Below, piece after piece: positions 1,215-31,970 of a stretch of DNA of 34,227 nucleotides; position 1 is the first letter of the stretch, and each line of letters starts with the position of its first letter. Origin of the DNA: a virus. The notes under the pieces were generated by a model, which saw only the letters and a list, made by a program, of their open reading frames with translations, searched no databases and was not told the origin of the DNA. A program made the translations under genes and the position numbers. The stretch is from the IMG/VR virus record IMGVR_UViG_3300030380_005378, positions 1 through 34,227 of that record; one strand, written 5' to 3'.

Positions 1215-1380
1215 TTTTTTTTCTGTCTGGCCTCTCTATTTTTATTTTTTCCGGGGCATCAAACAGTAAACGCACTTGGTTTCGATCAATGCGTTTAACA
1301 GTAACAAGTACAGAAGTCCCTTCCCCAAAAAGAAGTTCTACTTGCTCGCCAATTTTTCTCGTTAGAACTAGCGCGGTCAT
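1201..1380 (-). CDS. csrA: CsrA/RsmA-family RNA-binding translational regulator
   Basis: A 59-residue protein that matches carbon storage regulator CsrA from end to end. It opens with ALVLTRKIGEQV (E. coli LILTRRVGET) and has RNQVRLLFDAPEKIKIER (E. coli GNQVRIGVNAPKEVSVHR). The RNA-contacting arginines R6 and R44 of E. coli CsrA correspond to R8 and R50 here; R7 is lysine. The stretch between strands 1 and 2 is about four residues longer than in E. coli. CsrA dimers bind GGA in hairpin loops, usually over ribosome binding sites, and repress or activate translation. The ATG overlaps the polymerase stop as ATGA, so translation is probably coupled. Several phage ribosome binding sites look like CsrA targets. 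Identity is very likely; the phage targets are inferred. Confidence 0.92.
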   Translation of the reverse strand: MTALVLTRKIGEQVELLFGEGTSVLVTVKRIDRNQVRLLFDAPEKIKIERPDRKKIDPQ

Positions 1381-3176
1381 TTGCTATAGCAATAATCCCA
1401 TCCACCTTCAGCATCTAAAGGTAGATTCGGCGCCCACTGCGGGGCGGTGCGCATGATATCAAGCATCTGATTCATACGTTCTTCAGGGTTAGTATCATCG
1501 CTAATAGCAATAATTTCATCATGTACTGTTAAAACAACTTCAAAGTCTGGCAGTGCCTGGATTGCTAACATCTGCTCGCAGATGACAATCCTAGCGAGTG
1601 CCTGGACTATGTTCTCTGTTATTTTCCCACCGTACGTGAATTCTTGTTTGGCACCTGATTGATATCTCATCTTGCCACTGTTCAGTAGTTTCAAGTCCTG
1701 ATATCGCAAGGCCATGTCATTCGGTAACAGAATCGCAGAAGGCGCTGCTGTTAAACATTTGTATTGATAAGTAAATCGTTCGCCGCACTTTAAGCTGATT
1801 GTTTGACGTAAGATTCTTTCTGCTTGTTCCCAAAGGGCTTGTATGCCGGGGTAGGTGGTGCGGTAGGTATTTACAGCGTCTAAGCATTCCTCAAAATCTA
1901 AGTCTATATTTGAAGACTTAAGTGTTGCCTTGAACTTTTGTGCGCCCATGCCGTAACCCAAGCCCAAAATAGCTGTCTTTCCTACAAACCTTTCGACTTC
2001 ATCCGCCTTAGTGATTGATCTGCCATACAGCGTTGAAGCAAAAGCTGAGTAAACGTCAGCGCCATAGAAGTACATCTCCAGAAGATTGTCTTGATCTGCC
2101 AGCCATGCAAGCACACGAGACTCAATATTCGATAGGTCTGCAACGTACATGAGCTTGCCGTCTGGCGCTTCTAAGACCTTACGTAGCTGACTTTTCCTCG
2201 GCAGGTTCTGTAGGTTTATCTTTTCAGTGCCACCAAAACGTCCTGTATGGGCGGCGTAATACCGTAAAGGGGCTGGGATGCAACCTTCTGCATTGATAGC
2301 ATCTAAGAATCGCTGTGCTCTTGTCTCATTTAGGCGACTCTTAACTGCTTCTCGGCCTGCAAATACGTGTTCATAGTTAGGGTTTTTAACACGCCATTGC
2401 CTGAAGGCTGCATCGTTCTTGCCGAAAGCAGGGATCTGCTTACCAGTGGAGGGACTGGTTTTTGTGGGGACTTTCAGTCCCTGTTGTTCGGCCCAGCTCG
2501 CAAACTTTTGATTACTTGCCAACGTTGCACGATCTAATCCTGATCGTTCGATGGCTGACTCACTTTCTTGTCTTGCGTTATCCAGAAACGCTTGAGTCTT
2601 TGTTTGGTTAACAACTATTTTTGGTTCACAAAACATACGAGTTGTGAGGTCTATTAGTTGCATCTCTTGGTCTGGATACGAAGTTCGTAATTGATCGAAT
2701 ATGTGCTTCGTTAGCTCAACGTCTTGGATACAGTACCCAGCCAAGGCGTCCTCGATGTCGGGAGGCAGGTCATAAATACCTTTTGCGTTGACTAATTCTT
2801 CGCCCTTACGCATCGCTTCGTCATCAGGAAAGCATCGTACAGCTACGTCTTTTAACTTTGCAGACTGCCCTGGCCACTGTCCGCGAGCCATCGCTGCTGT
2901 GTCTGCGTAGTACTTAGGCTTGCATGCATACAGTTGGGTAAGTAGATAGCCGTCAAACGGTGTGTTGTGGCACAGCAGTGTAGCGGTGTCCCATTCGATG
3001 TCGTCGATAGCGCCTTCAACATCGTCTTCACCAAACCATTCAGTCGGCTCGTCATCTATCTTGATACCGACGCCCCATACTTTAAACATGGGGTGCTTGA
3101 TGTACTCCATTACAGACATTTTAGTGAGCGAGACTTTGGGGTCGTAATACGTCTCAAAGTCTAGTGTTACTAACAT
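1377..3176 (-). CDS. polA: Family A DNA polymerase with 3'-5' exonuclease
   Basis: Replicative DNA polymerase of 599 residues. The exonuclease domain shows motif I LDFET (D6, E8), motif II HNTPFD (N71, D75) and motif III YCIQD (Y148, D152). The polymerase domain shows motif A ADLSNIESR (D347, E352), motif B RFVGKTAILGLGYG (R396, K400, Y408) and motif C VHDE (H552, D553, E554). The residue equivalent to E. coli Phe762 is Leu404, a variant used in viral ecology as a marker of polymerase type. I chose the internal ATG at 3176 because the sequence becomes polymerase-like only from MLVTLDFET; an upstream ATG at 3299 would overlap the previous gene and read through it. The ribosome binding site is weak (GAAAGA). 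No thioredoxin-binding insertion is evident. Confidence 0.95.
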   Translation of the reverse strand: MLVTLDFETYYDPKVSLTKMSVMEYIKHPMFKVWGVGIKIDDEPTEWFGEDDVEGAIDDIEWDTATLLCHNTPFDGYLLTQLYACKPKYYADTAAMARGQWPGQSAKLKDVAVRCFPDDEAMRKGEELVNAKGIYDLPPDIEDALAGYCIQDVELTKHIFDQLRTSYPDQEMQLIDLTTRMFCEPKIVVNQTKTQAFLDNARQESESAIERSGLDRATLASNQKFASWAEQQGLKVPTKTSPSTGKQIPAFGKNDAAFRQWRVKNPNYEHVFAGREAVKSRLNETRAQRFLDAINAEGCIPAPLRYYAAHTGRFGGTEKINLQNLPRKSQLRKVLEAPDGKLMYVADLSNIESRVLAWLADQDNLLEMYFYGADVYSAFASTLYGRSITKADEVERFVGKTAILGLGYGMGAQKFKATLKSSNIDLDFEECLDAVNTYRTTYPGIQALWEQAERILRQTISLKCGERFTYQYKCLTAAPSAILLPNDMALRYQDLKLLNSGKMRYQSGAKQEFTYGGKITENIVQALARIVICEQMLAIQALPDFEVVLTVHDEIIAISDDTNPEERMNQMLDIMRTAPQWAPNLPLDAEGGWDYCYSK

Positions 3177-3184
3177 CGAGTCTT

Positions 3185-3394
3185 TCAAAATGAATCCTTG
3201 GCATCCTGCTCTTGTCTGTGCGCATAGATTGCTGCTTCCATTTGCTGGAAATTGCGCACAAGTTCTTTGTGTAGTTCTGGCTTCCTGCTCTTTAGCCACA
3301 CATGTGTGAACTGCAACAACTCTGAAGAGTTGATGTCACGGTCAAGGTGCGGCTGTATCTGTTCGCTGAGTTCTAAATATTCGTTCTTATCCAA
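3185..3394 (-). CDS. Small unknown protein, TTG start under a hairpin RBS
   Basis: A 69-residue charged, mostly helical protein; I do not recognise it. The TTG at 3394 is chosen because GGAGG sits seven bases upstream. A TTG at 3424 in the same frame has no such site and overlaps the previous stop. The GGAGG is in the loop of a perfect AGTAC/GTACT hairpin. The protein ends nine bases before the polymerase start, so the two are likely cotranslated. It has no cysteines, membrane segment or evident catalytic motif. Confidence 0.7.
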   Translation of the reverse strand: MDKNEYLELSEQIQPHLDRDINSSELLQFTHVWLKSRKPELHKELVRNFQQMEAAIYAHRQEQDAKDSF

Positions 3395-4905: not shown

Positions 4906-4975
4906 CTTCGGCCTCTTTGAAAAATTGTCGGATTGTTAGGAAGGTCAGTACAAACTGAAGTGCTTTTTGAATCAT
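4793..4975 (-). CDS. Possible small protein overlapping the previous ORF
   Basis: A 60-residue frame whose ATG overlaps the stop of the E2-like gene as ATGA, the junction type used throughout this arm. The first 20 residues (MIQKALQFVLTFLTIRQFF) are hydrophobic and helical; the rest (rich in P, E, D, R) overlaps the 4771-4905 ORF and looks like out-of-frame sequence. It may be a short peptide with a non-conserved tail. Low certainty. Confidence 0.35.
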   Translation of the reverse strand: MIQKALQFVLTFLTIRQFFKEAEDAAAGTETDTRGRRAGHIHGDSPSDPEPPEDPSRPTA

Positions 4976-5889
4976 GCTGCTATGTCCGTCGGCTCTGGGT
5001 ACTTATCGAACTTGTAGTAATGCCTACCGGCTCCGTCATCGGGGTCGAAGCGTTGCAAGAACATAAGCATTACCGACGCTGCTGTGGGTATGTCCATGTT
5101 CTCTAGCGCCTCTTGTATAGGGGCTGCATAGTCACCAAGGCATGGCTGGGTTGGCGCAGTCATATGTGGATGTAGCACGCGCTGGTCATCGAATCCAAGA
5201 ACCCGGAAAGACTCGTTGGGTACGGCACGGATACTGGTGCTGAAAGTGTTGTGTCGGAAGTTCATGTGAAAATCGACAGTCACAGGGTAGATAACTATTG
5301 ATGGTCGAGCTTCCCAATCTTCATCGTCGGCATGTATGTCCACTGCCCGAGTGCTGTTGAAAACAACCGTTGCTATTGCGCGGCGTGAGTCAAACTGATG
5401 TGTCTTGAATTTCAATGAGCCAGCTCGGTAGTAACAATTGTCTCTAGCGAGTTGCTGTTCGACATCTTTTACTGATATGACATTAGGGCCTTGGTTTTCA
5501 TCAGATAGTTGACTTGCTAGCTGAAGTTTCAACCGTTGTAAGTGGCCGAGGCTATCGTCGTACTCGGCAAGCTTGTCTCTCAATCTCTCTTCGTGGCGCA
5601 ATATTTCGTGGTCCATCCTTCTCAACTCGTCTCCTAGCTCAAGTTCAATGTGGCGAGCTAAACGTTTGTTCCCGCCTGCAAGTTTTAAGTAAGGCCAGCT
5701 TCTATCTGAAATTGTGTCGGGATGTGGGCGCGTTTTTCTCAAACGACCAAGCTTAAGTTTCATATTTAGACATGCATCACGAAGTCTTTGGCAGGCTCGT
5801 TCTTCGTACCAAATATCGCTCCGCAGCTTTTCCGTCTGCGTGGCATGTTTGTCCACGGAAATTTCTTTTGTATAAGACCATGTGCGCAT
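4972..5889 (-). CDS. E2-like (UBC-fold) ubiquitin-type conjugating protein with N-terminal coiled coil
   Basis: A 305-residue protein. Residues 15-130 are long charged helices (coiled coil). Residues 150-285 look like an E2/RWD-type alpha+beta domain: beta strands around PSIVIYPVTVDFHMN, then VLHPHMTAPTQPCLGDY. The HPH at 240-242 and PCLG with C250 correspond to the HPN...CL active-site region of E2 enzymes and to the HPH...CLG form in prokaryotic E2-like families. A closing helix and a DDGAGRHYYKFDKYPE tail follow. E2 enzymes take the activated modifier from E1 onto this cysteine. It starts five bases after the JAMM gene stop with AAGGAG, in one operon with E1. The E2 call rests on motif and context and needs structural confirmation. 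Confidence 0.72.
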   Translation of the reverse strand: MRTWSYTKEISVDKHATQTEKLRSDIWYEERACQRLRDACLNMKLKLGRLRKTRPHPDTISDRSWPYLKLAGGNKRLARHIELELGDELRRMDHEILRHEERLRDKLAEYDDSLGHLQRLKLQLASQLSDENQGPNVISVKDVEQQLARDNCYYRAGSLKFKTHQFDSRRAIATVVFNSTRAVDIHADDEDWEARPSIVIYPVTVDFHMNFRHNTFSTSIRAVPNESFRVLGFDDQRVLHPHMTAPTQPCLGDYAAPIQEALENMDIPTAASVMLMFLQRFDPDDGAGRHYYKFDKYPEPTDIAA

Positions 5890-5891
5890 GG

Positions 5892-6716
5892 TTACTCCTT
5901 GAACCCAAATGGGTTGTTGATAATGTCTCGGTCGTGGTAGTCGTCGTAGTACTCATCGTAATAATCGTCGACGCCCATCAGTCCGCCCCATCCTGGGTTG
6001 TTTCGGACAGACTGCATGCCATGTGGCTTGGCTACGTAGTCGTTGTTCGTAAACGGAACGTTAGGGTTGTAGTAGCTGCCACCAACGTTTGGTAATCGAG
6101 ATAGGTTTTTTACTATTGGTTTTTTGATTTTGTCTTTGATGATTTTGTCGAGGCTTTTCTTGAGTGCTTTGGGCATTGGCGTCGGACGCAAACCGTTATC
6201 AACACACTGATGTATGCAGTTGTTGTTTACGTCATACACATCTACTTTGCTTGCGCCCTGCTTGTTGTAGATGCCGCGTATGAAGATGTTGCAGCCGTTG
6301 TCTAGGAACTGCTCGATCTGAATCTCGTCCTGACCTGATGGGCCAACGTCCATCGTGACGTGCGAGTGACCCCAGTACAGGAGCTTCTCTGACTCTTTAC
6401 CTGCGTTCTCGATCTCCATCGCTAGCTCGCATAACGTCTCTGCATCGATGTCGGTCTCGGTGCCGGTGACTGTTTGCTCTGGCACATAGATGTCAGTGAC
6501 TAGGTAGTTGCCGTCGTCCAGTGTGTCTACAAGCCCCAGCCACCCGACCTCTGTAGAGATGGTATCCACGAGGTATCGGATGGCGGCGTAAACGTCTTCC
6601 GTATAGAAGACGCTGGGTGCGTCAGGGAAGTCCCAGTCATACAACTGAGTTGTAGATTTTGTACGCGAGGTGCTCGTGAACGAGCAGCTGGGCGTTTTGT
6701 ATGTTTGTGTTTTCAT
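5892..6716 (-). CDS. JAMM/MPN+ (JAB) metalloprotease, deubiquitinase-like
   Basis: A 274-residue protein with a complete JAMM zinc site: E56 in TEVGWLG, then GHSHVTMDVGPSGQD giving H117, H119, S127 and D130 (HxH-x7-S-x2-D). Family members cleave isopeptide bonds after ubiquitin-like modifiers or trim modifier C-termini. After the domain there is a basic stretch (KKSLDKIIKDKIKK) and a tyrosine/aspartate-rich tail (YYDEYYDDYHDRD). The ATG at 6716 overlaps the E1 stop as ATGA with AAGGGA upstream; an upstream ATG at 6779 would lie inside the E1 gene. The tight packing between E1-like and E2-like genes argues for removal or maturation of the modifier. Confidence 0.9.
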   Translation of the reverse strand: MKTQTYKTPSCSFTSTSRTKSTTQLYDWDFPDAPSVFYTEDVYAAIRYLVDTISTEVGWLGLVDTLDDGNYLVTDIYVPEQTVTGTETDIDAETLCELAMEIENAGKESEKLLYWGHSHVTMDVGPSGQDEIQIEQFLDNGCNIFIRGIYNKQGASKVDVYDVNNNCIHQCVDNGLRPTPMPKALKKSLDKIIKDKIKKPIVKNLSRLPNVGGSYYNPNVPFTNNDYVAKPHGMQSVRNNPGWGGLMGVDDYYDEYYDDYHDRDIINNPFGFKE

Positions 6717-7402
6717 ATCTTGTCCCTTGTTGTGAACATCATGGGTTTGAAAAAGACATCGAGCTGCGGGGTCGAACACCCGTCATCGAGTAGGAAGTTC
6801 ATGAACTCCCAGACAACAAGGTTGGCAATCAAGGACGCAGTGGCACCGACGGAGATACTTGTGCCACAGGGCGATTGCTCTGCTTTGTCATCATCGATAA
6901 GCGTGTCGAACCACGCAGCGCGTTGTGCAGTATTGAGTGGTGAAAAGTGAAAGACGTTGCCGTGGGTAGAGGCCATGCGTGTCTCAAAGATATGTAGCAA
7001 CAGGCTGTCAGCGCCTGTGCTTTGCGCCTCAACAATCTGTCGTCTTGACGCCATGCTGTCAGTTAGCAGGAACAAGAAGCCGTTGAACTGACGTTGGTCA
7101 ACCCGCTCGTTGATGAAGCGCATGTCTTTGATTAGATCAGCAGGCATGCCTAGCTTCTTTTGTGTCAGGTCTTTGAGAGCGTTCACCTTGTGCAAGCCAA
7201 TGTGCTCGTGCAGGTACGCTTGGTTAGCTAGGTTGTGTGGCTCAACGATGTCGTAGTCATACACACTGATGTTGGTAAGACCCAACTCGATGAGTGACAT
7301 GAACACACGGGAGCCTGTAGCACCGGCACCTACGATGTGGATTGGGAAGTCCTTGTAGTCGTAAGCACGGAAGATCGAATCGTGTCTGATGGTCGATAAC
7401 AT
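6713..7402 (-). CDS. E1-like ThiF/MoeB/HesA-family adenylating enzyme
   Basis: A 229-residue E1-like Rossmann enzyme that activates the C-terminus of a ubiquitin-like protein with ATP. Visible: the nucleotide loop IHIVGAGATGS (G25-S31), YDYDIVEPHNLANQ with D51 and N57, a lysine in LHKVNALKD (K72), LLTDSMASR with D115, and SPCGTSISVGAT with C179, the likely thiol. It is a minimal single-domain E1 with no extra catalytic domain and no CxxC zinc pairs, unlike MoeB. The ATG has GAGGAC upstream and follows the 7405-7671 gene directly. Thiamin or molybdopterin synthesis is unlikely because none of those pathway genes is present, while E2-like and JAMM genes are. Confidence 0.9.
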   Translation of the reverse strand: MLSTIRHDSIFRAYDYKDFPIHIVGAGATGSRVFMSLIELGLTNISVYDYDIVEPHNLANQAYLHEHIGLHKVNALKDLTQKKLGMPADLIKDMRFINERVDQRQFNGFLFLLTDSMASRRQIVEAQSTGADSLLLHIFETRMASTHGNVFHFSPLNTAQRAAWFDTLIDDDKAEQSPCGTSISVGATASLIANLVVWEFMNFLLDDGCSTPQLDVFFKPMMFTTRDKI

Positions 7403-10693: not shown

Positions 10694-10951
10694 TTACATT
10701 TTGTTGCGCATTTCGTTTTGCATGTGCTGGTAAAATTGCTCTTCGCGAAACATGTACCAATAGAGAGCAGCGACAGTTTGAGGGTGGACGGTCTGAGCTT
10801 TAGTGCCACGAGCTTCGGCTCTACGGTCGAGTTGCCACTGCGTCATTGCTTGTGGTACGAGGAACGACCAGCACCATTCGATGTCCTCGATGGTGGTTTT
10901 TGTTAGCTCTTCTTCGACGCACTCAATTCGATGTGTATATACAAGTTCCAT
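10694..10951 (-). CDS. Small unknown protein
   Basis: An 85-residue helical protein rich in Glu, Gln and Trp (IEDIEWCWSFLVPQAMTQWQ). The ATG at 10951 shares one base with the upstream stop and follows GGAGG by seven bases. No family recognised. Confidence 0.7.
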   Translation of the reverse strand: MELVYTHRIECVEEELTKTTIEDIEWCWSFLVPQAMTQWQLDRRAEARGTKAQTVHPQTVAALYWYMFREEQFYQHMQNEMRNKM

Positions 10952-11190
10952 TACGCAGCCTCCGTCAGGTCAAAGGTTAGTTGTTCGGGCACATTAGGAC
11001 TACGAACTAAGGTCCAGCCTCTAGTGTCTATGTACCCTCGCATCTCAAGAGCTGCAGCTGCGAACAATGCTTCGGGTGTAGTCAGCCTTTTATTTAGGCG
11101 ATAGACAGCTCCGTCTGTAGCTAAGGCCCATAAACTACGGTCCTTGGTCCTTTGTCTACCGAGTCGGCATGAAGTGATGGAAATGGTCAT
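10951..11190 (-). CDS. Small unknown protein next to the repeat region
   Basis: A 79-residue protein beginning MTISITSCRLGRQRTKDRSL, with an alpha/beta pattern. The ATG at 11190 follows GGAG (within GGAGCTTTCC, a small dyad). It is the first gene downstream of the iteron-like region on the minus strand, the place where origin-binding proteins are often encoded, but it shows no DNA-binding motif I recognise. Confidence 0.7.
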   Translation of the reverse strand: MTISITSCRLGRQRTKDRSLWALATDGAVYRLNKRLTTPEALFAAAALEMRGYIDTRGWTLVRSPNVPEQLTFDLTEAA

Positions 11191-11254
11191 GGAAAGCTCC
11201 GTTTTTGTAGTGAAAACATCAACGAAACCGACTGAGGCGAGCCTGCGAGCCGCA

Positions 11255-11615
11255 ATGTGTGCCAGATTTTGGGCTTGTGTGTCAGGTTTTTGGCAATGTG
11301 TGCCAGATTTTGGGGGTAATGTGTGCCAGATTTTGAGCTGTAAGTTATTGATTAGATTGAACTTAGTAAATGTGTGCCAGATTTTAGGGGGTTTTCAAAT
11401 TTAATTTGCATTTTAGTATGTTGTTTTTCTGAGATACGTCTTTGTAGAAAACAAAGTCGGAAAAAGGTGGCACACATGGCACACATGTGGGGAAATTGAG
11501 AGTAAATGTATAGGAATCAATGACTTAAGTGTGTGTCAGATTTTGAGATTTACGTGGCACACAGTTGGCACACATGGCTCTGAAGTGGCACACACTGGCA
11601 CACACTGGCACGCGC
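11255..11615. repeat. Iteron-like region: many GTGTGCCA / TGGCACAC repeats, possible origin
   Basis: A non-coding region (11191-11663). The left part has direct repeats of GTGTGCCAGATTTTGGG at 11257, 11298, 11321 and 11372, with a variant at 11277 (GTGTGTCAGG). The right part has the complement TGGCACAC at 11468, 11477, 11555, 11566, 11586 and 11596, a variant TGGCACGC at 11606, and one more left-type copy at 11531. The centre (11390-11460) is AT-rich. Opposed iteron arrays around an AT-rich core are typical of replication origins; an alternative is a repressor-binding array. Confidence 0.65.
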
Positions 11616-11663
11616 TGGTGGCGCACGTCAATTTACGGTGGGCAAAGGGCCGTAGCCCCTGAG

Positions 11664-11912
11664 CTAAGCTCGGTAGTTTATGTATTCGTCTGCGTCGACG
11701 AAGGCCGATACACCAGTTGACTCTTCGATAGCATCGATTGAGTCGTCCATGTCCATCACCATTAGGGTAATGATGCCGACCATGATGTCGGACGGGTTGT
11801 CCTTGGCGTATTGCACAGCTTTGGTGCCTAGTTCTTTAGCCTTGGCTATGTTGTCTTCGGTTACGTACTTGGTCTTTAGTGCCATTGCTTGGGTCTTTAG
11901 TTTACTGATCAT
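11664..11912 (-). CDS. Small unknown acidic protein with hydrophobic centre
   Basis: An 82-residue protein: an amphipathic helical N-terminus (MISKLKTQAMALKTKYVTED), a hydrophobic stretch SDIMVGIITLMVMDM and an acidic end. It could associate with membrane but lacks a clear full-length membrane span. Its start overlaps the upstream membrane gene by 11 bases with GAGG about nine bases before the ATG. Confidence 0.7.
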   Translation of the reverse strand: MISKLKTQAMALKTKYVTEDNIAKAKELGTKAVQYAKDNPSDIMVGIITLMVMDMDDSIDAIEESTGVSAFVDADEYINYRA

Positions 11913-12096
11913 TGTGAAGGTCCTCTTGGATTGAATAAGAAATGGTGATGCCAGCGCATGTGAGTAAGCCGATGGCGATGCCTGCGATTAGCGAGTTGAC
12001 TGAGAAGTATGGCTCGTAGCCTGCCCACTCAAGTCCGCCGATAAGTAGAGCGTTGATCAAGAAACCAACAAAGATAAGTGCTATGGATCGAATCAT
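11902..12096 (-). CDS. Small membrane protein, first gene of the left arm
   Basis: A 64-residue protein with two membrane helices (SIALIFVGFLINALLIGGL and SLIAGIAIGLLTCAGITISY) and a short polar tail. TAGGAG precedes the ATG at 12096. As the first gene after the divergent region it is probably expressed first. Early phage membrane proteins often act in superinfection exclusion, which is only a guess here. Confidence 0.75.
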   Translation of the reverse strand: MIRSIALIFVGFLINALLIGGLEWAGYEPYFSVNSLIAGIAIGLLTCAGITISYSIQEDLHNDQ

Positions 12097-12330
12097 GTCT
12101 ATCTCCTATGTAAAGACAAAGATCTATCCGACTACCGAGGAGCCTGCGACGAGGGGGTAACTACGGACAAGGTTCCAAGGGTCAAATAGCAAACAAGGTT
12201 CCATAATGCGAAACCGGGGACAGGGGGCGGGGAAATGGCGATGGGGGAGATAGTGCCTCAGCGATTTAGAACCTTAATTCCAAAAAAATTTTTCTAAAAA
12301 TTTTCCTGGGCACTTAGTCCCTTGTTTCTA
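12097..12330. promoter_or_regulatory. Divergent non-coding region between left and right arms
   Basis: About 260 bases separate the two arms. It has two direct copies of ACAAGGTTCCA (12167 and 12193, 26 bases apart), a G-rich stretch (12210-12250) and an A/T tract with runs of A and T at 12281-12304 that may act as an UP element or bend. No protein-like frame is seen. It must supply the promoters of the left arm; I could not pick a convincing one (a minus-strand TTGACC near 12184 is the best -35 seen). Confidence 0.45.
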
Positions 12331-12351
12331 AATAGTAGCAACAGTACTATT
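12322..12351 (+). promoter_or_regulatory. Right-arm promoter with embedded 21-bp dyad
   Basis: A -35-like TTGTTT (12322-12327), 17 bases, and a -10-like TACTAT (12345-12350). The dyad 12331-12351 (AATAGTAGC, AACA, GTACTATT) covers spacer and -10 box and begins three bases after the -35, the same geometry as at the primase promoter. Initiation would fall near 12357, on the ATG of the next gene. Confidence 0.5.
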
Positions 12352-12356
12352 GCGCG

Positions 12357-12605
12357 ATGACCTATATCAAAATGTTGTCGATAGAGGGCCTTGAATTCGC
12401 GATTTTGGGCACTGGCTCTCGCGGCGGCGGGGAAGAGGTACTGGTTTATGACGGCTATGCAGCGGAAAAAGTTGCAGATCTGTCTCGTTACGTTGAAGAG
12501 CTTGAAGACGCGGGGATGTTACACCTTGCGCCTATTTTCGTTTACCTAGACGAGGAAGTACGTGCAGAAATCTGCAGAACCGACCGTTGGAGAAGAGTCC
12601 ACTGA
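12357..12605 (+). CDS. Small unknown protein, first gene of the right arm
   Basis: An 82-residue acidic protein (MTYIKMLSIEGLEFAILGTG start, LSRYVEELEDAGMLHLAP in the middle). No ribosome binding site precedes the ATG at 12357, and the promoter geometry suggests a leaderless mRNA. An ATG at 12372 is an alternative. The last 44 bases overlap the terminase small subunit gene. It may be a regulator or a packaging accessory; no family is recognised. Confidence 0.55.
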   Translation: MTYIKMLSIEGLEFAILGTGSRGGGEEVLVYDGYAAEKVADLSRYVEELEDAGMLHLAPIFVYLDEEVRAEICRTDRWRRVH

Positions 12606-13077
12606 CGTAGTTGGGTTTCAGTCGCACATGCCTTATATGGGCTTGAGCCTTGGCGACCTGACTGTTCAGCAAGAAAAACTGGTGATGCTTGTGCTGAGTG
12701 GCATGAGTATAGCGGCGGCTGGCCGTGGCGCCGGTTACGCAAGCGCTGCCACTGTGTACGACGCAATCAAGCGGCCAAAAGTAGCGCATGCACTAGAGTA
12801 CTTTCGGGAGCAGATGCGCGAAGACGTTAAGTTCACTCGTGCTAACGCTCACGTTATGTACATGGATGCTTATCAGGCGTCTGCCACAGCAACGGAGATG
12901 AAGAACACAGTCGATAGCCTTGTGAAGCTGCACGGGTTGACCGCGCCAGAGAACGCTACGCAGGTAAACATCAACATAGACGCTACACCTAAACAGTTGG
13001 AAAGGATGTCCGACGAGGAGCTTCTCAAAATAGCAGGCAAGGACGCTTCCTATTTAGAGCCTATGTCGGATGACTGA
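12562..13077 (+). CDS. terS: Terminase small subunit
   Basis: A 171-residue protein that recognises the packaging site and recruits the large subunit. Residues 45-75 contain a helix-turn-helix (LSGMSIAAAGRGAGYASAAT), followed by helices for oligomerisation and an acidic C-terminus. The GTG start at 12562 follows GAGGAAG by three bases. It overlaps the large subunit gene by eight bases. Identity is supported by motif, size and position. Confidence 0.85.
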   Translation: MQKSAEPTVGEESTDVVGFQSHMPYMGLSLGDLTVQQEKLVMLVLSGMSIAAAGRGAGYASAATVYDAIKRPKVAHALEYFREQMREDVKFTRANAHVMYMDAYQASATATEMKNTVDSLVKLHGLTAPENATQVNINIDATPKQLERMSDEELLKIAGKDASYLEPMSDD

Positions 13078-19057: not shown

Positions 19058-19091
19058 GGGGGAACGTTGGAAACAAAAAAAGAGGTGGTGG

Positions 19092-29200: not shown

Positions 29201-31970
29201 CGATGTGACGACACCGTCAAACAAACAACGCGCTTATGGCAATCCGATTACGTTTCCTTTTGGCGACCCAATCGAACTAATCGCGCAACCGATCCGCAGA
29301 GCCGCAAGCCGATTGAATCTAAAACTGCCGATTGGTCTTGTCACTATTAGCCAATTGAATCAACTCACTGAAGGGCAAATCCGAGAGCGATTTGGTGACC
29401 CTAGGGTAGCCGCCGCTTTTATAAGGGAGGCCAGAGACCTTAGAGCTAAGCAGGACACGCTGGGGCGTTCGTTAACTTTTAAGAATGCGCACTTCATTCT
29501 GGTAGACGATACAAAAGTTGTTAACGATTACGAGGCCACATTAGTTGCCGCCCATGAGCTGGGCCACGCGGTTTTCCAAGAAGAGCTTGATGGGCTTGTG
29601 GGTAAGCCGATATTTAATCGCATGTGGCAGTCCTTTAAAAACAGAGATCGCTCAGAGAAAGCGTATTCAGGCCCCCACGGATTTGAAGAATGGTTCGCAG
29701 ACAACGTGGCCAAATGGGTAGACATACAGACTCGAAAAGATGTGAGCCAACGTCCCGCAAACATGGAAGAGTCTGTATTCAAGCGCATAGCTGGTAAGTT
29801 GATTGAGCTTTACAACACTATGCGCGTTGAGATGCGTCGAAGGTACAGGGGCGAAGTAGATGTCGCCGTTGATAGCTTTATTCAGTCTGTTATCCGGTCT
29901 AATGCGAACAATAATATTTCTATGTCGCAGGATGCCGCCGCTGTTGCTGGGTCACCACCCTTTGAAAAGAAAGCCATCGTCAGGTCTATACAAGTTCAGG
30001 TTGAGCAGACTCCGGGTGCAAAAGGATTTGCAACAGCTTTAGCTAGAAAAATTACGACTGGCGCTAGAGATGCAGTCGAGGCAGCAAAACCCCTTCGGCA
30101 TGTATTCTTTACTGCCAACAAGAACCTACGTTTTATCAGCAGCCGCATTGCAGACATGTTTTACGTTGAGGCTGGCGCCAGCGGTAAAGGCTCCCGTATG
30201 GGATTCCTGCAGGAAGCCGACGTTCAAAACCGCGAGTTTGAAGTTAAGTTTGAGAGGGAAATCGGTGACTTAAACTCGCCCGAAGTTGTAGCTGCGATGG
30301 AAGAAGCCGCAACGAGTACGCCTACAGGTGACTTGCAGAATGAGTTAGCTAGAAAGATTCGGGGTTTCTTGGAAGCTATGCATAGGGACTATATAGAACC
30401 CATGCAGGCGGGTTACGAGAGTAGTGACAAAATCCAATTCCAGGCTGACTACTTCCCTGTCGTTTTAAATCTACAACAGGTAGCCAACCAGTCGGATGCA
30501 TTTATCCAGCTGATATTAGAGCAACGTAATCAGACCGAAGACTTGGGCGCTAAAGACGCTGTAGCTAAAGCCGTCGCTCGGATTGTTAAGTATCAAGACG
30601 TGGTCACGAACTCGGACTTGGCGGTCGATGAAGATTTAGACCCTGCGGCTGGCCGAGAGGAACAGCGCCAACTGACTGCAGGCGTTGATCGACAGGCTTT
30701 GGCGGATTTTCTTGTGCCGCCTACAGAGGCTTTTAGGACATACAAGAAACAGCTTGTTAAGCGCGTTGAGTGGAACAGGTCGACAAAAAGTATCGACGGT
30801 AGAGACAGGCTGGGGCCGCTGTTAGACCAGCTAGAAGGCCCGGATAAAAGTTATGCGCAAGACATTATCAACAGCTATCTCGGCTACGGGTACGAGCCAA
30901 TGTCAGAGGGGCGCCGTAAATGGCAGAGCAGGTTGTTGGCTGCGCAGTACACATTGTTACTGCCGTTTGCTGCTATTGGCTCACTGCCTGAATTGGCTGG
31001 GCCAATAATATTTTCTAAAGAGTTCGGTGGCTTTGAGATGGCCTTCCGTCAGATAAAGCAGGGCATATCACAGAAAGAGGCTCGCTTGCTGGCAGAGGAC
31101 ATAGGCTTGGTTCAAGACGGCGCGGTATCAAATGCGTGGATGAGCGTGACAGAGCGCGAGTTTATGGACGAAGCATCGCGTAACTGGACAGACGGATTTT
31201 TCAAATACACAGGCCTAGAGTGGTTTACAAACTTTTCGCGGAGTTTTGCTACAGGTATGGGCGTGCAGTTTTTGTTACGCCACGCCAGAAACGAAACTGG
31301 CAACCCGCGTTCAGCCAGATACCTGCAAGACTTAGGCGTCACGGCAGAGCAAATTCTTGCTTGGGAACAGGGCGGTCGAGATATAAATACTACCGAAGGT
31401 AGGGCGGTCAAGTTCGCATTACAGAAGTTCGTCGAGAGTTCAATACTTCGCCCGAATGCAGCAGAGCGTCCCGTTTGGGCTTCAGACCCTAGGTGGGCTT
31501 TGGTCTGGCAGCTGAAGTCTTACTTCTATGCTTTTTACACAAAGATCATCGGGGGCATTCGGCGGGAAACCATGACTCGTTTGGATGAGGGCGAAGGTGC
31601 AGAGCGGATTGTTGCCGCATCCGCTGTTCTCGCTTTGTCTGCTGCAGCTCTACTACCGTTAGCTATGGCGGGGATGGAGTTGCGCGAGTATGCCAAGACA
31701 GGGGCTGCGTTCTTCACGTCGTTCGGCCAGAGCGACAAAAACTATTTCCGCACAGATGACATGACATGGGGCACTTATCTGGGTGAAGTGTTTGACAAGA
31801 CAGGTGTGTATGGACCGCTGTCTATTGTTTCGATGGCATATCGCAGTGGGCAGTGGAACGGTCCCGCAGCAGGCGTTGCAACTTTGCTTGGCCCGTCGTT
31901 TGAAACAGTAGAAGCGTTGATAGGGCGTGGCGAGTTTGATCGCATAGTCCCAGCAGCAGCTATTTTGTAG
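26256..31970 (+). CDS. Giant internal virion protein with metallopeptidase motif
   Basis: A 1904-residue protein in the T7 gp16-like slot. Residues 100-160 include hydrophobic helices (QLAPFAITSVLSAGFGAAAG). Around residue 1100 is a gluzincin-type zinc site: AAHELGHAVF (H1100, E1101, H1104) and about 40 residues later GFEEWFADN (E1144/E1145, D1149). A membrane segment near residue 1790 (AASAVLALSAAALLPLAMAG) is close to the C-terminus. It is probably ejected to build the envelope channel; the protease could cut envelope proteins or process the ejection complex. No lytic transglycosylase motif is seen, unlike T7 gp16. Confidence 0.82.
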   Translation: MAGFEETISGLASANESAPGPSKFERQVALDKSRDYGLGETFGRGAQAGAQGLRSDLNYFAALGNSLIGDKKGVVDRVQQARVSESLAGDTLGNLESFSEFIDEPTFSGFMSQVAKGTGQLAPFAITSVLSAGFGAAAGVGTKLAAEGTKLAAKRIVKDSLQKTAKGIATPEEKDIADATWNLAKRARIGAYTGAGASEFAPLSGSNLSEAIEAGRDPNDPLVAFRAAALGAPQAAIGVGGEVALLKLIGSRANKLAAGDANSVMGRLAKDLGTGFVRGGAIEASTETVQEGLAVLNRAQMDDTFTSQDAKLRLGEAAFAAFFGGGAFGSAGSAAAGGVREITNVPEGVKTKTRELMQTGKQAIADNVINNELFRGKNFQYTSPEATSDINAQIDAMFDDENQKQVVWVEGENPAFGAATDGRLARKQINGKDAFVAFVPGRGTIISPFADIAQEVVDGQATDTVLAAALGYSSPKPVDSDRVVQVLDGRGRVVSEEVTNEAGEAAAKAAAGPLTPKGGSVRTVAVDDAVRERDEKVAAEAEPVVRSMEASSAMDIAEAVLASDSYKNASDAQKRRIEAQLEQLRREASTPELEAEMEGAVADPESGVGEQSLQLTGETSYKPAPLNEDGVIREYDGLQEARQNFTEAFDGVYSPDFTDGSYWSRMTPFMLNGLVRQRRAGKEVEIEPPERRANDSYGVKIFSSEVDLFRHQPRNKSAPEQLLELGEFLEKEVGLAAGSQFARGSGVSIVTPDGSQRAVNLVDLTNAGRRLLATRLNQDFTAASDAEALLEALNELITNDYRVLVKATGRDRQRRNVSRDVDITAASSAGQSILGALASYQQRVTRWFLDNSTVDANDPTQRVLNDNAPDRPAAPAFLQAILNTPVRVEKGNKTTLRQVLGRNLSRTRGEEAASAEQARSEQLEERARRQQNVVVEEDVAEAVERQEAAEEGLVDRPDFIGDESVDRPNQFTLPEDPPYAYYDVTTPSNKQRAYGNPITFPFGDPIELIAQPIRRAASRLNLKLPIGLVTISQLNQLTEGQIRERFGDPRVAAAFIREARDLRAKQDTLGRSLTFKNAHFILVDDTKVVNDYEATLVAAHELGHAVFQEELDGLVGKPIFNRMWQSFKNRDRSEKAYSGPHGFEEWFADNVAKWVDIQTRKDVSQRPANMEESVFKRIAGKLIELYNTMRVEMRRRYRGEVDVAVDSFIQSVIRSNANNNISMSQDAAAVAGSPPFEKKAIVRSIQVQVEQTPGAKGFATALARKITTGARDAVEAAKPLRHVFFTANKNLRFISSRIADMFYVEAGASGKGSRMGFLQEADVQNREFEVKFEREIGDLNSPEVVAAMEEAATSTPTGDLQNELARKIRGFLEAMHRDYIEPMQAGYESSDKIQFQADYFPVVLNLQQVANQSDAFIQLILEQRNQTEDLGAKDAVAKAVARIVKYQDVVTNSDLAVDEDLDPAAGREEQRQLTAGVDRQALADFLVPPTEAFRTYKKQLVKRVEWNRSTKSIDGRDRLGPLLDQLEGPDKSYAQDIINSYLGYGYEPMSEGRRKWQSRLLAAQYTLLLPFAAIGSLPELAGPIIFSKEFGGFEMAFRQIKQGISQKEARLLAEDIGLVQDGAVSNAWMSVTEREFMDEASRNWTDGFFKYTGLEWFTNFSRSFATGMGVQFLLRHARNETGNPRSARYLQDLGVTAEQILAWEQGGRDINTTEGRAVKFALQKFVESSILRPNAAERPVWASDPRWALVWQLKSYFYAFYTKIIGGIRRETMTRLDEGEGAERIVAASAVLALSAAALLPLAMAGMELREYAKTGAAFFTSFGQSDKNYFRTDDMTWGTYLGEVFDKTGVYGPLSIVSMAYRSGQWNGPAAGVATLLGPSFETVEALIGRGEFDRIVPAAAIL

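Follow-up and report, generated by a model that had tools for sequence, protein, structure and literature searches.

A conserved opposed-repeat array as a probable replication origin in a group of tailed phages

Introduction

The closest counterparts of the locus reported here are the origins of PICI elements, such as those of E. coli, in which two sets of iterons flank an AT-rich region (PMC6092414). In PICI/SaPI elements (SaPI5 PriRep1, PDB 7pds/7ola/7om0) the ori lies directly 3′ of the rep gene, each element encodes one SF3-type primase-helicase, and the iterons, which are recognized by the C-terminal domain of SaPI Rep (PMC7581432), differ between elements. A PICI is, moreover, a small satellite without a structural gene set. 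The NrS-1 primase-polymerase (PDB 6k9c; PMC7102993, PMC8718748) consists of an AEP primase and, after it, a hexameric SF3 helicase, and has one recognition site per strand near the genome centre; its 8-nt template site, TTTGGTTA, occurs twice, and no iteron array has been described. For the ICP1 origin-directed nuclease and the PLE RepA-ori, the replicon has been found to remain functional when its origin motif and the DNA-binding domain of its initiator are exchanged jointly (PMC8263062). The PLE initiator is of the RepA_N type, and its iterons are semi-palindromes of ~30 bp. More distant parallels are provided by phage SPP1, which has two origins, oriL and oriR, and the initiator gp38, and by HSV-1 oriS, where boxes for the initiator UL9 face each other across an AT core.

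Results

The window analysed here is an IMG/VR contig of 34,227 nt from a marine tailed phage, in which the TerL, portal and capsid genes run rightward and a family A DNA polymerase gene leftward. As its relatives measure 50–61 kb, the window is a genome fragment, and the gene order in those relatives places the expected primase-helicase gene beyond its left end. Phages bearing the array described below are tailed phages of 50–64 kb, and one of them, G002 (56.3 kb), is almost closed, since its two termini lie in genes that are neighbours on the map of the window. The cultured relatives found were Pseudomonas phages KPP25, phiR18 and their kin, and Aeromonas phage phiA008. One scan of genome contigs for integrated prophages returned three MAG-binned contigs that were free-phage-like, none of them visibly integrated.

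A first-pass annotation of the window had drawn attention to about thirteen copies or variants of one 8-mer in a non-coding stretch, in one orientation to the left of an AT-rich core and mostly in the opposite one to its right, and this description was borne out. Ten exact GTGTGCCA sites are present in the whole window, all of them within 11257–11603: four on the + strand on the left side (11257, 11298, 11321 and 11372) and six on the − strand on the right (11468, 11477, 11555, 11566, 11586 and 11596). The opposed-repeat array is real and far beyond chance, with 1.5 exact copies expected window-wide and none of 100 dinucleotide shuffles reaching 10. About five variant copies accompany the exact ones, including GTGTGTCA on the + strand (11277 and 11531), and GCGTGCCA (11606) and GTGCGCCA (11619) on the − strand, and the copies of the array point inward around the core. 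A fitted 10-base matrix gave 15 sites in 11200–11680 and no site at or above 72 % of the maximum score in the rest of the window. The 17-base unit that had been proposed for the left copies, GTGTGCCAGATTTT(G/A)GG, is present at four of them, with a near copy at 11531; the latter is also the lone + copy inside the mostly − right half, an exception that is conserved in relatives. The array is intergenic, between ORFs 10951–11190 and 11664–11912, and its core (11391–11459) is 72 % AT, compared with 50 % for the window. An Rfam search of the window returned no match, and comparison of the array DNA with named phages revealed chance-level similarity only. The features of the locus and its landmarks are as follows.

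1377..3299, − strand: family A DNA polymerase gene; followed by the primase-helicase gene in relatives
11256..11265, + strand: outer left iteron TGTGTGCCAG, extending to GTGTGCCAGATTTTGGG
11276..11285, + strand: outer left iteron, variant TGTGTGTCAG
11297..11306, + strand: outer left iteron TGTGTGCCAG
11320..11329, + strand: outer left iteron TGTGTGCCAG
11341..11353, − strand: IHF-consensus site of the left arm, AATCAATAACTTA (a perfect WATCAANNNNTTR); at −30 relative to the inner iteron, the position also seen in relatives; also listed as inverted-repeat pair I14
11371..11380, + strand: inner left iteron; single here, a 9-bp-spaced dimer in most relatives
11391..11459, no strand: AT-rich core (72 % AT), candidate DNA unwinding element
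11467..11485, − strand: dimer of inner right iterons, a pair of TGGCACAC copies spaced by 9 bp that faces the inner copy on the left
11515..11527, + strand: IHF-consensus site of the right arm, AATCAATGACTTA, a perfect match; at +144 relative to the inner iteron (~+141 in relatives)
11530..11539, + strand: lone reversed copy TGTGTGTCAG in the right arm; position conserved
11554..11604, − strand: outer right iterons, exact copies at 11555, 11566, 11586 and 11596
11605..11628, − strand: two degenerate outer right copies, GCGTGCCA and GTGCGCCA
12562..13077, + strand: terminase small subunit-like gene; syntenic landmark, considered as encoding an alternative binder

In relatives, an opposed array was found 1.5–3 kb upstream of the terminase genes at each of the 30 TerL loci for which 3.3 kb or more of preceding sequence is available (24 satisfied a strict 7-mer criterion and six were identified by reading), as well as in 8 of 8 further contigs; the array score threshold of 5 was reached by 0 of 300 shuffles. 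In most genomes the array is the only strong opposed-repeat cluster, and most carry 0–2 strong motif sites elsewhere. No array was found in phiA008, although the helicase gene is present. In many relatives the repeat word itself differs, and we observed TGTGTACCA, TGTGTGCAG, TGTGACA, TGTAGCAGG, TGTTACGAA, TGTGTGCCA, TGTGTGTCA, TGTGTTCCA, TGTGTGACGG, TGTTGCAGG, TGTAACAGG, TGTGCACC, TGTGCGC and TGAGACA, among others. KPP25 uses TGT(T/C)ACGAA, and a phage contig more distant than these shows an arrangement of GGTTCC/GGAACC copies that, read by eye, is comparable.

Whilst the motif differs, the geometry of the array is constant to a few bp among relatives. The order is outer copies, an IHF-consensus site, a 9-bp inner dimer, an AT-rich core of ~70 bp (65–83 % AT among arrays), a facing dimer, a second IHF-consensus site, one reversed copy and again outer copies. 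Taking the first inner + copy as 0, the inner + copies lie at 0/+9 and the facing − copies at +91/+100, with the reversed copy at +152 to +159 and the outer copies at about −96 to −42 and +175 to +201. IHF-consensus sites occupy −30 (− strand) and +141 (+ strand; +126 in one clade), and perfect matches number ~1 per array vs ~0.03 per 400 b genome-wide, both sites in the window being perfect. With ≤ 1 mismatch allowed, some arrays have one site or none, L307 has none, and KPP25 has none at these positions. That the geometry is frozen whilst the recognition word changes rapidly is the least expected feature of the locus.

KPP25 contains a second opposed array (L216; 58256–58534), built from the word used in the first and with a similar AT-rich core whose sequence matches (TTTATTCCACTACAG...). 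The two arrays, the first of which lies at 26.4–26.8 kb, are ~31.8 kb apart on the 64.1-kb circle. In the part of the literature that was searched, no such array is described for these phages and no origin for the KPP25 group, and the words origin and iteron are absent from a CRPAP1904 paper. A separate run of 17 CAGCCCA copies, nearly all in one orientation, spans ~260 b of annotated coding sequence in KPP25 (29863–30121). Among the contigs, the two ends of G004 (55.4 kb; L205, L206) share a 199-b overlap that lies in the array and contains one mismatch, and several others start in or near the array, at either an assembly break or a physical end.

An AEP-primase/SF3-helicase of the NrS-1-like kind is encoded in 24 of the 26 array genomes, and the two without it, one of them the window, are truncated contigs. 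The protein, 833 aa long in the relative G002, matches DUF5906 and has NrS-1 primase as its closest solved homologue (E 2e-28 in the PDB). The AlphaFold2 model of the helicase (mean pLDDT 81.5, pTM 0.45) was comparable in structure to the NrS-1 C-terminal region (Z 25.7) and to SaPI5 primase-helicase 7om0 (Z 15.1 over residues 370–800, with a large whole-chain rmsd), and its modelled secondary structure predicts a winged-helix order of elements at residues 727–804. On account of the similarity to NrS-1 and SaPI5, the predicted winged helix, the SaPI Rep precedent and the PICI origin layout, we assign the helicase as the putative initiator, which would bind the array via its C-terminal winged helix; in KPP25 the candidate is gp57 (38774–41179). 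The helicase gene is situated 8–10 kb from the array in G002, L285 and relatives. The 79-aa protein encoded next to the array (10951–11190), suggested as a binder by the first-pass annotation, matches five loci only (44 % over 41 aa) and is therefore not general to the array-bearing phages.

Attempts to link individual residues or proteins to the motif did not single out a binder. In a column scan for co-variation of helicase and motif the top column was R800, located in the predicted wing; for R800 and windows 791–810 (column scan, partial Mantel), however, the RecB-type exonuclease and the DNA polymerase gave signals as strong, and because control proteins show equal associations, the R800 signal adds nothing to the assignment. 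A 'code' relating helicase residue 774 to the motif, derived from the first ~23 taxa, was refuted on adding L380, L371 and L412. In the trio L285, L307 and L312, where the motif switches between close relatives, no protein stands out as the binder.

The cumulative GC skew proposed earlier as a check on an origin gave an equivocal picture. The circular skew minimum lies at the array in G002 and within ~1.5 kb of it in G006 and G033, and the skew averaged over 25 relatives steps up at the array. In G003, G004, G035, G039 and G043, by contrast, there is no inflection and the skew is positive almost all round, and in KPP25 the inflection is 2.6 kb from the array, at the gene-direction switch. With five near-complete genomes lacking an inflection, whole-genome GC skew is not discriminating as an origin locator, and we give it no weight in either direction. 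In those five genomes the skew is positive in the terminase orientation, leftward genes included, and such near-uniform skew may reflect one-directional replication.

Discussion

Based on synteny, the fixed geometry, the AT-rich core, the paired IHF-consensus sites and the SF3 primase-helicase, the best reading of the array is that it is the replication origin of the phage, to which we assign a probability of about 0.72. The origin proposed in the first-pass annotation thus remains the favoured interpretation after comparison, albeit an inferential one, whilst the partition and repressor alternatives offered with it are not supported (see below). Origin function, helicase binding, IHF occupancy and bidirectional replication are all putative in the following scheme. 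Helicase hexamers would load on the two inward-facing iteron sets through their C-terminal winged helix, and host IHF would bend the DNA at the two flanking sites such that the outer copies fold back on the inner. Between the inner copies, the AT-rich core of ~70 bp would then melt and two helicases would load in opposite orientation, with primers made by the primase domain being extended by the family A polymerase of the phage.

The array probably works like a PICI/SaPI origin, with which it shares two iteron sets flanking an AT-rich region, a single SF3-type primase-helicase that is structurally similar in its helicase part, and iterons that differ between elements. We do not claim membership of that family, because the array is 8–10 kb from the helicase gene rather than linked to rep. 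It also differs from PICI/SaPI origins in its paired IHF-consensus sites, its greater length, its fixed inner 9-bp dimers and its one conserved reversed copy, and the phages that carry it have terminase, portal, capsid and other structural genes. Unlike NrS-1, they additionally encode a separate family A DNA polymerase. The facing boxes of HSV-1 oriS recall the array and SPP1 oriL/oriR recall the two KPP25 arrays about half a genome apart, by analogy only, as the UL9 and gp38 initiators are unrelated to the phage helicase; two origins, as in SPP1, would nonetheless explain the second KPP25 array.

Among the alternatives, a pac/cos packaging site bound by the small terminase subunit and IHF is harder to exclude than the others, although we consider it improbable. 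A conserved terS gene lies 1–3 kb downstream of the array, IHF sites are also part of lambda cosB, and several contigs begin in or near the array, including G004 with its overlapping ends. Most contigs nevertheless read through the array, and the nearly opposite positions of the two KPP25 arrays on the circle argue against a unique pac site. Packaging would have no need of a long AT-rich core between facing dimers, and the TerS proteins of G035 and G041 are 90 % identical whilst their motifs are different.

The array might alternatively be an attP, with arm-type sites for a tyrosine integrase, IHF-bent arms and the AT-rich core as the crossover region. An arrangement of opposed arm repeats with IHF sites does resemble lambda attP, and several relatives carry a tyrosine integrase, that of L285 having an N-terminus that resembles an arm-binding domain. 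This is unlikely, however, because the array is retained in near-complete genomes that have no tyrosine integrase and because, where an integrase was placed, it lies ~17–19 kb from the array (G004, G006). No tyrosine integrase match was found in G002 (nearly closed), KPP25 (complete), G033, G055 or G058, nor in G043 at E ≤ 0.1, and the array is well kept in integrase-less genomes where read. Furthermore, no tRNA genes or tRNA-like core were noted, and KPP25 has two arrays. Tyrosine integrases are encoded at 19088–20146 in L285, 17196–18194 in L307 and 19932–21002 in L312; those with an arm-binding-like N-terminus occur in some relatives and are absent from others, and the array is common to temperate and apparently integrase-less members.

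There is similarly little likelihood that the array is a transcriptional control region to which a repressor or activator of the phage binds, with IHF in an architectural role. It does lie within the block of leftward early genes, at 0.7 kb from the gene-direction switch, and several operators can be arranged along one face of the helix. Yet a sigma-70 model, which does not cover phage-specific promoters, detected 0 sigma-70-like promoters in 10900–12700, and operators would not usually take the form of symmetric facing dimers around an AT-rich core of conserved length. The motif is also not tracked by the HTH_3 protein encoded close to the integrase (L285 18126–18698): L285 and L307 share the motif, whereas the protein shows its greater similarity between L285 and L312. 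Finally, although P1 parS-type sites do contain iteron arrays with IHF, a partition centromere is most improbable, because no ParA was found (PF13614 matched in 0 of 17 genomes or records), and virulent KPP25-like phages keep the array.

For the replication origin, a tentative and rather doubtful extension is that a widespread and mostly uncultured phage lineage carries a satellite-type origin of frozen geometry in which the recognition sequence and the initiator DNA-binding domain turn over together, selected by rivals that parasitize or cut the origin. PLE and ICP1 could be a precedent for what drives the change of word, with the difference that no nuclease selecting for motif change, or other driver, has been identified in the present phages. 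If such co-turnover were true, origin identity would amount to a compatibility or immunity type among these phages. On the origin reading, the layout of two iteron sets and an AT core would extend from satellites to full-size phages, including the cultured P. aeruginosa phages KPP25 and phiR18, origin/initiator specificity and its turnover would become directly testable, and a KPP25 gene annotated only as hypothetical would gain a likely role.

Elsewhere in the window, a ThiF-family (E1-like) protein (6713–7402) is encoded beside two proteins of ~300 aa (4972–5889 and 5892–6779), the first of which diverges much faster between relatives than its neighbours.
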